In this document: positions 39,227 to 52,281 of the stretch, piece after piece | Layout of the letters: each line of letters starts with the position of its first letter | Numbering within the stretch: the first letter of the stretch is position 1 | Assembly: GCA_015659035.1 (NCBI GenBank) | Contig: DQNS01000001.1 | Location: 1-64,000 of the forward strand | DNA: 64,000 nucleotides | DNA from: Acidobacteriota bacterium | GTDB lineage: Bacteria > Acidobacteriota > Vicinamibacteria > Vicinamibacterales > UBA8438 | Direction: 5' to 3' | The notes under the pieces: generated by a model | The model's input: only the letters and a program-made list of their open reading frames with translations | What the model was told of the DNA's origin: nothing | Databases searched by the model: none | Program-made: the position numbers and the translations under genes

Positions 39227-39265
39227 GGGCTACGGGCTTCAGGCTGCAGGCTGCAGGCGCCCGGG
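39227..39265. repeat. Heptanucleotide repeat array
   Basis: GGGCTAC GGGCTTC AGGCTGC AGGCTGC AGGCGCC CGGG: five 7-bp units directly abutting the MFS start codon region. Confidence 0.85.
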
Positions 39266-39534
39266 TTTCGTCGCGGGGCTGCCCAGTTGGACGCCGGACC
39301 GGCAGGGCGGAAAAATGGGCCTCCGGCAGGTCCAGTCCTCGGTTGCGGTGTGGGCCAGCGTACCAAGAAGCGGGCGATAGGTGGGCACGTCGTACCAGGG
39401 CAGAGCGTTGGCGGTGGCGCCACAACTGCCTGCCGCCCGTTTTACTCACTGACGCTGTTCGTCCTGCCTCACGGCCTCCAGCCGGACAGCCCCCCGGCAC
39501 CGCCCTCCTGCCTCCTGTCTCGTGAGAGCGCGCG

Positions 39535-48058: not shown

Positions 48059-50107
48059 ATGATGAGCCGACGAACGTCTCGGGTGCTCGCCCTGTGGAGC
48101 GTCGTCGTCCTCGTGTCGTCCGGCGCGGACGCCCAGCAGGGCGCCCCAGCCAGTGGTGAGTGGCCCACCTACGGCGGAGACCTCGGCGGCACGAAGTACT
48201 CGCCCTTGGACCAGATCGACGCCGCGAACTTCAGCGACCTCGAGATCTCCTGGCGCTGGCAGTCGTCCGACGCGTTCATGAGCAAGACGACGCCCTCGGG
48301 AGGTGAATGGTGGGCCACCTCAGACGTCATCTTCGAGGCGCTGAACGAAGAGGACCCGGACCGCTGGCGAGACGGCCAACCGCCCTACACCAACAACCTC
48401 AAGGCGACCCCGCTGATGGTCGGTGGGCGGCTGTTCATCAACATGCCGACCTCGTCCGGCGCCGCGGTCGACGCCCGCACCGGCGACACGCTCTGGGTCT
48501 ACAACCCGAAGACCTACGAGGCCGGCACCACCACCATGACCGCCCGCTGGAACCAGCGTGGCGTCGCATACTGGAGCGACGGCGAGGCGGAGCGGGTCTT
48601 CTGGGGCACCAGCAACGGCTATCTGATCTGCGTCGAGGCCGCCAGCGGTCGTCCCTGCGCCGATTTCGGCGAGAACGGCCGCGTCGACCTGATGCGAGAC
48701 ATCCCACGCGCCGACCGGGACGAGCGCGACTGGTTGAATGCGTTGCTCTACTCGGTACAGTCGCCGCCGATCGTGGTTGGCGACACCGTGATCACCCCGG
48801 CGTCGATCTCGTCGTACAACATTACACGCGAGGCGCCGCCGGGCTGGATGCGAGGATTCGACCCGCGGACGGGCCGCACCAAGTGGACGTTCCATACGAT
48901 TCCGCAGGGCGACGAGTTCGGCAACGACACCTGGGGTGGCGATTCCTGGCGCGTCACCGGCAAGGTCGGGGTCTGGTCGATGATGAGCGCCGACGCGGAG
49001 CTCGGTCTCCTCTATCTCCCCACCAACACGGCGGCCCCCGACTACTACGGCGGGCATCGACCCGGCGCGAACCTGTTCGCCGAGAGCGTGGTCGCGCTGG
49101 ATCTCGAGACCGGCGAGCGGGTCTGGCACTTCCAGGCGGTGCACCACGGGCTGTGGGACTACGACTTCCCGGCGGCGCCGAACCTGGTGGACATCGAGGT
49201 GAACGGACGGCCGGTCAAGGCGCTGGCGCAGGTGAGCAAGCAGGGTTTTCTGTATATGTTCGACCGGGTCACCGGCGAGCCGATCTGGCCGATCGAGGAA
49301 CGTCCGGTCCCGACGGACACCGACATCGCGGGCGAGCTGCCGTGGCCGACCCAGCCGTTCCCGACGCGGCCGGCGCCGTTCGAGTATCAGGGCGCCACGA
49401 TCGACGACCTGGTCGACTTCACCCCCGAGATCCGGCAGTTGGCGATCGAGGCGGTCGACGGGTTCCGGCTCGGCCCACTGTTCACGCCGCAGAGCCTGAC
49501 AGGCACGATTCAGCGACCAAGCACCGGCGGCGGCGCCAACTGGTCGGGCGCCGGGGTAGACCCCGAGACCGGGCTGCTGTATGTGCCGTCGGTCAACGCG
49601 TACTCGGTCCGCAACTACCGTGACCCGGAACCGGGCGAAGGGGCCACCCTGAACATCATCGAGAGACGCGGGGCGGGCACTCGGGGGCCGACCATGCCGC
49701 GGGGGCTCCCGCTGTTCAAACCGCCGTACTCGCGCATGACCGCCATCGATCTCGGTACGGGCGACCACACCTGGATGAAACCAATGGGAGACGGCGAACG
49801 GGTCCGCAATCATCCGCTGCTCCGCGATCTGGACCTGCCGCCGCTGGGAGGTGACAGCAGCCGGGCCGGGCCGCTGGTGACCAAGACGCTCCTCATCTAT
49901 GCGCTGACCTCCGGGGGACTGAGTGGGGGGCCCCGGCTGGTGGCGATGGACAAGGGCACCGGTGAGGAACTGGCGTCGGTCGATCTGCCGCGTGGGGCGA
50001 TCGGCACCCCGATGACCTATCTGCTCGACGGCCGGCAATACATCGCCCTCACCGTCGGCGGCTCGCCGGTCCCGGAGCTGATCGCGCTGGCGCTGCCGGA
50101 ACGGTAA
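48059..50107 (+). CDS. PQQ-dependent dehydrogenase (quinoprotein, beta-propeller)
   Basis: [80 protein letters not shown]. Confidence 0.93.
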   Translation: MMSRRTSRVLALWSVVVLVSSGADAQQGAPASGEWPTYGGDLGGTKYSPLDQIDAANFSDLEISWRWQSSDAFMSKTTPSGGEWWATSDVIFEALNEEDPDRWRDGQPPYTNNLKATPLMVGGRLFINMPTSSGAAVDARTGDTLWVYNPKTYEAGTTTMTARWNQRGVAYWSDGEAERVFWGTSNGYLICVEAASGRPCADFGENGRVDLMRDIPRADRDERDWLNALLYSVQSPPIVVGDTVITPASISSYNITREAPPGWMRGFDPRTGRTKWTFHTIPQGDEFGNDTWGGDSWRVTGKVGVWSMMSADAELGLLYLPTNTAAPDYYGGHRPGANLFAESVVALDLETGERVWHFQAVHHGLWDYDFPAAPNLVDIEVNGRPVKALAQVSKQGFLYMFDRVTGEPIWPIEERPVPTDTDIAGELPWPTQPFPTRPAPFEYQGATIDDLVDFTPEIRQLAIEAVDGFRLGPLFTPQSLTGTIQRPSTGGGANWSGAGVDPETGLLYVPSVNAYSVRNYRDPEPGEGATLNIIERRGAGTRGPTMPRGLPLFKPPYSRMTAIDLGTGDHTWMKPMGDGERVRNHPLLRDLDLPPLGGDSSRAGPLVTKTLLIYALTSGGLSGGPRLVAMDKGTGEELASVDLPRGAIGTPMTYLLDGRQYIALTVGGSPVPELIALALPER

Positions 50108-50115
50108 AGGCTCAT

Positions 50116-50216
50116 CGGCTGTGGGCTGTGGGCTTTGGCCACCCTTCCGGCTACCGGGCGTGGCCCGCTTTGTCTTGGTGCGTCAGTGAGCGCCCAAAGC
50201 CTATAGCCTGTAGCCG
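50116..50216 (+). repeat. Inverted-repeat element with heptamer-iterated 23-bp arms
   Basis: Left arm CGGCTGTGGGCTGTGGGCTTTGG (50116-50138), right arm CCAAAGCCTATAGCCTGTAGCCG (50194-50216); all 23 positions pair in RNA if G.U is allowed. Confidence 0.85.
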
Positions 50217-50231
50217 GAGGGTCGATCTGTC

Positions 50232-51197
50232 GTGCGTATCATCTTCGACACCGACTCGGCGGTCTTCAACGACGACGCGGCGGCGCTGGCGATGCTGCTG
50301 CAGCGGCGTGACCTGGTCGAGATCCTGGGGGTCACCGTGGTCGCCGGGAACCACACCGTGCCCCAGGGCGCCGAGCACATGCTGCATCTGCTCGAGCTGA
50401 CCGGCGCAGACGCCGTCCCGCTCTACCTCGGCGCCGACGCGCCGCTCGTCAACACACCCGCGCGCGCCGCCCGACAGGAAGCGCAGTGGGGCCCGATTAC
50501 GTTCAAGGGCGCGTTCGATGCCGGGCCCGAGGTACTGCCGCCGCACGGAGGACGCATCGCCGCGACTCGCCCCCGGGAGACCACTGCGGTGTCCTTCATC
50601 ATCGAGACCATCGAAAAGTACCCGGACGAGGTCACGCTCGTGGCGGTCGGTCCGATGACCAACCTGGCGACGGCGTTCCGCCGCCGGCCGGATCTGGCAG
50701 GGCGTGTCAAGAGCCTGGTCTTCATGGGCGGTAACGCCCGCGTGCGCGGGAACGTCACCCCGGCCGCCGAGTTCAACATCTGGTTCGACCCCGAGGCGGC
50801 CGCCGCAGTGCTGACCGCACCGATTCCGCGCATCGTGATGTTCGGGCTCGACATCACCAACCACGCGCCGATTCGCAAGACGCAGTTCGACGCGATCGTC
50901 GCCATCGACACCCCGCTGACCCGCCTCATGCGACACGACATGGGACCGCGGTTCGAGCGCGACCCGGATGCCACCTACTACGTGTGGGACTGCATCACCG
51001 CGGCCTGGCTGATCGACCCGTCGGTCGTGACGGTATCGGAACGGCTGCCGATCGAGGTCGACACCACGTTCGGCCCGTCCTACGGCGGCACCCGGGTGAG
51101 CGAGGAGCCCCAGGCCGAAGACCGGCTCGTCGAAGTGATGCTCGATCTGGATATCGAGAAGTTCTACGGCATGTACGAAGATCTGCTCACCCGGTAG
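50232..51197 (+). CDS. Inosine-uridine preferring nucleoside hydrolase family protein
   Basis: MRIIFDTDSAVFNDDAAALAMLLQRRDLVEILGVTVVAGNHTVPQ, GPMTNLATAFRRRPDLAGRVKSLVFMGG. Confidence 0.93.
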   Translation: MRIIFDTDSAVFNDDAAALAMLLQRRDLVEILGVTVVAGNHTVPQGAEHMLHLLELTGADAVPLYLGADAPLVNTPARAARQEAQWGPITFKGAFDAGPEVLPPHGGRIAATRPRETTAVSFIIETIEKYPDEVTLVAVGPMTNLATAFRRRPDLAGRVKSLVFMGGNARVRGNVTPAAEFNIWFDPEAAAAVLTAPIPRIVMFGLDITNHAPIRKTQFDAIVAIDTPLTRLMRHDMGPRFERDPDATYYVWDCITAAWLIDPSVVTVSERLPIEVDTTFGPSYGGTRVSEEPQAEDRLVEVMLDLDIEKFYGMYEDLLTR

Positions 51198-52091: not shown

Positions 52092-52281
52092 GGAAAGGAT
52101 CTTATACAGCCGCGAAGAAGTCAGAAGTCAGAAAACAACTCGAGGGCTTCACGGTCAGCTTCAGAAACTTGCTGTAGGCTATGTGGTCCCGGGTAACTGG
52201 CTTGCGATCGTGACAGATCACCGACTGTGTCCACCGAGACGGTGACCCACAGCCCTCTGCCTTCTAAGAGCATCCGAGATC

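Follow-up and report, generated by a model that had tools for sequence, protein, structure and literature searches.

The stem between a PQQ-dependent dehydrogenase gene and a nucleoside hydrolase gene in the window (the whole 64,000-nucleotide stretch of Acidobacteriota DNA that was analysed) is one copy of a dispersed, polarised, fast-turning-over family of intergenic elements with inverted heptamer arms. Copies of the family are fast-turning-over insertions or expansions, and not ancient regulators, because a given junction can gain a copy, lose it or switch its heptamer class from one congener to another. The whole explanation that we favour, and in which we place slightly more belief than doubt, is of a dispersed element with fast turnover that acts, if it acts at all, as a 3′-end hairpin or weak terminator. 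The window's own genome (G000) is a MAG of 3.18 Mb, 89% complete; the data are MAG contigs, as sampled stretches of genomes, with genes from one simple codon-usage caller, and the sample G000s, picked from contigs with GGCT arrays, was excluded from rate estimates.

The stem and the element around it

The PQQ-dependent dehydrogenase gene (48059-50107) and the inosine-uridine nucleoside hydrolase gene (50232-51197), both recognised by Pfam, enclose an intergenic spacer of 124 nt on the + strand (50108-50231), which runs from the stop codon of the former to the GTG of the latter; the stem thus lies where an earlier note on this DNA had placed it. Its left arm (50116-50138, + strand) is the class B heptamer array GGCTGTG GGCTGTG GGCTTTGG, flanked by a GCTCAT motif (50110-50115, + strand) that is found beside other class B arrays too; class A arrays, for their part, often have GCTC(GA) next to them. 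The right arm (50194-50216, + strand) is the inverted class B array CCAAAGC CTATAGC CTGTAGCC(G), matched by the GGCT-array search at C65:50198-50215 on the minus strand. Both arms are GGCTNNR arrays with the 7-bp periodicity that the earlier note described, and both arm sequences are unique within the 64-kb window. The complete pairing claimed for them was reproduced, 23/23 positions pairing through 18 Watson-Crick and 5 G.U pairs with 0 mismatches, and an extra outer U.G pair (50115/50217) extends this to an ungapped helix of 24 pairs. Folding of both strands gave -66.8 kcal/mol (z -4.56) for the + strand and -49.5 (z -2.61) for the minus strand, so that the + strand RNA is indeed the stronger, as had been proposed.

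The longest helix in 2000 dinucleotide-preserving shuffles of the spacer averaged 9.8 and never reached 23, and a helix of at least 23 was present in only 4/506 intergenic regions sampled from the window's genome. However, the arm pairing is far less improbable than the shuffles imply, because both arms are GGCTNNR arrays and random pairs of such arrays from the same genome pair completely over 18 nt, G.U allowed, in 7.2% of cases (96/1332).

Rather than being open, the 55-nt loop of the earlier note contains a G+C-rich hairpin, GGCCAC...GTGGCC (about 50137-50165, + strand), followed by a T-rich, terminator-like tail (50166-50177, + strand) and then by GTGCGTCAGTGAGCGCC (50178-50194, + strand), which is conserved with two homologous copies of the element, one in the same genome (L136:11461) and one in the congener G002 (L156, about 1245-1360). 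An alignment of these 3 copies only gives a common layout of left array, GGCC..GGCC hairpin, T-rich stretch, GTGCGTCANYGAGCGCC and inverted array, with an A-U/G-C exchange in the hairpin; the T-rich stretch reads GCTTTGTCTTG in the window and TCCTTTTC and GTTTTTC in the homologous copies. Convergent-gene junctions host 2/3 of this subfamily, and CGTGCGTCANYGAGCGCC is restricted to the window's genus among the 162 genomes of the order that were searched. A loose intrinsic-terminator scan of the + strand returned 2 overlapping sites, against 0.2 in shuffles, with the weak T-tail CGCTTTGTCTTG. No Rfam match in the window reached a family's gathering score, on which ground a known structured RNA family was rejected for the stem, and no tRNA or tmRNA was found in the window.

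Heptamer arrays at gene edges

The arms belong to a much larger set of repeats. In the window's genome the pattern GGCTN3GGCTN3GGCT has 41 matches, compared with 8 for the reversed control, and a motif-free count found 44 intergenic period-7 runs in 0.5 Mb of DNA sampled without bias, of which 83 kb is non-coding, where the other periods (5, 6 and 8-12) gave 0-2 runs each. Two unit classes dominate the sampled DNA of this genome: class A, AGRAGDC, with 75 arrays, and class B, GGCTDYR, with 14. The class A unit varies at position 3 (A/G) and position 6 (A/G/T), the remaining five columns being 85-99% fixed. The most variable position of the units, position 6 in class A and position 5 in class B, is rarely C (just 3% of units); A, G and T are the bases used there. 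The window itself also holds a solo class B array (39228-39261, + strand) and class A arrays at 52116-52137 (+ strand, AGAAGTC AGAAGTC AGAA) and 39504-39524 (minus strand, CCTCCTGCCTCCTGTCTC on the +). A heptamer-like run, CCGACCCATGACCCACGACCCATGACC, at 2941-2975 falls in DNA that the gene caller assigned as coding.

A core of consensus AAGCCGGAGGGCTTCGCCGGCTTC commonly stands behind class A arrays; 71% of cells in its hairpin are paired, against 70% in column shuffles, and the class A core hairpin therefore gains no support from covariation. The classes can also share a spacer: the hybrid spacer L137:12043-12221 has a class A array at its left edge and class B further right, and the orthologous spacer in G003 (L257:11938) has the class A half only.

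The placement of the arrays relative to genes is strongly polarised. Among 202 intergenic class A arrays from three congeners, the median distance to the adjacent gene is 14 nt at the outer edge, and the inner edge stands 97 nt from the gene on the opposite side; the outer side is the nearer in 175/202. Gene 3′ ends adjoin 134 of these arrays and 5′ ends 68. In 24/24 two-armed spacers the AGGAG... array at the left edge reads into the spacer and the right edge carries its complement; two-armed copies therefore form long stems. Class A arrays occur in 8/88 divergent regions and 59/439 co-directional ones, and class B arrays in 7/88 and 18/439 respectively. Arrays are thus found outside transcription ends too, in divergent regions; this counts against the terminator reading and would suit a repeat with no role equally well. 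The general plan of the element is an array that begins about 14 nt from a gene and runs inward, in many cases with a core hairpin behind it and in some with an inverted array at the opposite edge.

Such an arrangement could also be read at the level of DNA, with each array a series of tandem sites to which a sequence-specific protein (of the nucleoid, or related to transcription) binds, and the inverted pair looped or bridged. The mixture of fixed and degenerate columns in AGRAGDC and GGCTDYR does resemble a recognition motif, and the strict inverted order of the arrays would suit it; but relatives differ completely in their unit, a change that a conserved binding protein should counteract, and no candidate protein was identified, so that we consider this reading quite unlikely.

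Several other repeats were seen alongside the heptamer arrays. A separate dispersed, MITE-like palindromic family, whose terminal inverted repeats are long and imperfect (GGGTCCGCGCAAGAATAAGTTCCCATTTT...), has several intergenic copies (L266:7278-7586, L266:3033, L222:795, L232:9630 and, in G002, L168:9830). Another repeated intergenic stem, GTTTTCCTGGCGAGGCG...CGCCTCGCCAGGAAAAC, occurs at L155:11619, L268:10085, L147:2651, L277:11848 and G003 L253:12065, and a third palindromic family, built on AGCAGYCCGTGGTGAAAGTCC, at L230:9675, L210:2766, L149:2157, G003 L250:360 and G002 L171:18695.

Turnover of the element and matching of its arms

In 8/10 relatives that keep the dehydrogenase-hydrolase pair the junction measures only 2-37 nt (L042, L051, L038, L046, L052, L036, L047 and L040). 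Of the others, the junction of L050 is 98 nt long and contains an unrelated hairpin, and that of L035, from the congener G002, has 218 nt with a class A heptamer stem, AGGAGTCAGGAGTCAGAAGGCAGAAGGCAG against CTTCTGCCTTCTGCCTTCTGACTTCT. The 124-nt spacer of the window thus appears, from these sequences, to be an insertion relative to the junction of most relatives. Other junctions likewise come as filled and empty pairs (125 nt vs overlapping genes; 4 vs 130; 46 vs 4; 10 vs 41 nt), and a further class swap is seen at L265:17733, which is class A where G003 has class B. AGGAGNC arrays reach high numbers in the window's genus alone (228, 283, 134 and 61 matches) and are few elsewhere among the 162 genomes of the order, while GGCTNNR arrays occur in 107/162, with lineage-specific units such as GGCTCGG, GGCTTTA, GGCTGAA and GGCTCAG, the reversed control being equally common in several of the genomes that carry them. 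The reversed-control pattern is rich in G030, G042 (455 matches), G031 and G130, and its abundance in some genomes suggests still other heptamers there.

Presence and absence between congeners, together with paired inverted palindromes in intergenic DNA, might recall REP/BIME-like palindromes mobilised by a RAYT or IS200-type (Y1) transposase. REPs are tied to RAYT transposases; REP/BIME palindromes have, to our knowledge, no tandem heptamer arms. Mobility of this kind is disfavoured, and to us highly improbable: no Y1_Tnp is found in the window's genome (at its 89% completeness), the 7 Y1_Tnp loci of the congeners have no class A array or core near them, and no target-site duplications are visible at the filled and empty pairs. 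One of the Y1_Tnp loci, L287, has a single GGCTTCGGGC word.

Within a spacer the arms resemble one another closely: 431/470 positions are Watson-Crick, and the within-spacer arm score is 411.5, against 346 (sd 14.8) for permuted arms, with 0/5000 permutations as high. The earlier note had read the G.U-only pattern as a sign of RNA-level structure. Its interpretation holds in part: the + strand fold of this copy is the stronger, but the pattern gives no support for selection at the RNA level and fails as a rule of the family. Among the genus's co-directional heptamer stems, 21 without that of the window, changes to G.U and to A.C in the transcript sense stand at 28:21 (p=0.39); G.U-only pairing was rejected on this count as an RNA signature of the family. 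The arms of the L136 and L156 copies are mismatched and pair more poorly than the window's, and the stem of the congener ortholog uses unrelated heptamers. Judged by the note's own yardstick of whether pairing is lost freely at homologous loci, arm pairing is not specifically conserved, though the arms fit above chance within a spacer. A structured functional RNA, selected for a long stem and with G.U-only pairing kept in the + strand transcript, is in our view very unlikely: the 5 G.U to 0 A.C of the window, its much stronger + strand fold and the similarly long stem of the congener spacer (G002 L035; 4 G.U to 1 A.C) speak for it, but have to be set against a family without G.U bias, homologous copies with mismatched arms, the 7% of random array pairs that pair fully and the lack of an Rfam family. 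The eye-catching pairing is, rather, a minor coincidence within an architecture that is itself real, because sister stems show no G.U preference and 7.2% of random pairs of class B arrays pair fully.

Template-switch homogenisation of a quasi-palindrome could be expected to yield the same picture of matched arms, and neutral repeats with arm homogenisation are a serious rival to our explanation. In this account slippage expands the units, template switching copies the arms and selection only purges coding DNA, with no function of RNA or DNA. Rapid turnover with class change at the same junction, arms that are alike per spacer without a bias of G.U over A.C (28:21), and drift of the variable unit positions between orthologous two-armed spacers (L144 and L261) would all be in keeping with it, as would the proposal, cited in PMC4679880 and PMC4692102, that heptamers favour polymerase slippage. 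Yet variation is limited to set unit positions across unlinked arrays, conserved cores stand behind arrays, and the arrays keep a very regular position with respect to genes. Plain slippage predicts neither set-position variation, cores nor regular placement, and we regard the account as possible but less than probable. Alternatively, an as yet unknown active process of the Vicinamibacterales might write AGRAGDC and GGCTDYR arrays at gene edges and keep spacer edges complementary, with the unit replaced wholesale between species. This seems unlikely to us; if it were true, the source of set-position variation would be imprecise synthesis on a template or a protein that reads the repeats, and not slippage plus point mutation.

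Returning to the dispersed, fast-turnover element that we favour, the data suggest in part that selection on the stem is at most mild, and that the arms of one spacer are alike because they arise, or are homogenised, together. The window's copy would have been inserted into a tight, probably co-transcribed junction. Once transcribed it is most likely passive, forming a large intercistronic hairpin, and its inner G+C-rich stem and T-rich tail may bring about partial termination, or mark the 3′ end of the PQQ-dehydrogenase message, the nucleoside hydrolase perhaps being separated from that message in this way.

Relation to known heptamer repeats

Intergenic heptamers have been noted in bacteria several times before, with G4 or translational roles proposed, and a search of a limited literature collection found no paper on heptamer repeats in Acidobacteria. 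Palindromes paired in intergenic DNA are a feature shared with REP/BIME, for which roles in termination and mRNA stability are proposed (PMC3733652, PMC3116915). Geobacter metallireducens has multicopy elements of 4-5 heptamers (GGACCGG x4, MTYCTGA x5), partly intragenic, which PMC2700814 treats as putative regulatory RNA or global-regulator sites; the arrays described here are likewise multicopy, and class A, when read as CTTCTGN, comes close to MTYCTGA. Marine Beggiatoaceae carry an exact TAACTGA unit in 169 direct sets and one indirect, mostly just upstream of start codons (PMC4679880). These too are short intergenic heptamer arrays near genes at very many loci, whereas ours form inverted pairs and are enriched at gene 3′ ends. 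The Beggiatoaceae and Geobacter elements are looser relatives than the Xanthomonas repeats.

Intergenic heptameric repeats are described as GGGAATC in Xanthomonas and GGGGA(C/T)T in Nostoc (PMC4692102). The Xanthomonas repeats form 70-75 inverted pairs per genome, lie at 0-50 nt from ORFs, being on the coding strand where they follow a stop and on the non-coding strand where they precede a start, vary in length and sequence between close relatives at conserved positions, and were studied by those authors as G-quadruplex-forming (PMC4692102). The family described here is like them in its head-to-tail period-7 units, over-represented in intergenic DNA (44 runs against 0-2), and in its polarity at gene edges (median 14 nt, 175/202; 24 inverted pairs and 0 in the opposite order). 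In contrast to their near-fixed, G4-capable unit, AGRAGDC and GGCTDYR are degenerate, with no invariant GGG per unit, and here two interchangeable classes occur in a single genome, with conserved core hairpins behind many arrays. The window's family is a little-described variant of the Xanthomonas repeat type and no strict member of it, because its units are degenerate and without a G-run, and one class can take the place of the other.

Strict positional polarity thus persists here with degenerate units that are free of G-runs and are swapped between congeners at the same junction. The same polarity without a G-run speaks against explaining the architecture through G4 formation; it favours a shared process, or shared selection, acting on arrangement rather than sequence. 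With hundreds of copies per genome, and filled and empty sites between congeners, the family offers a system in which this can be tested.
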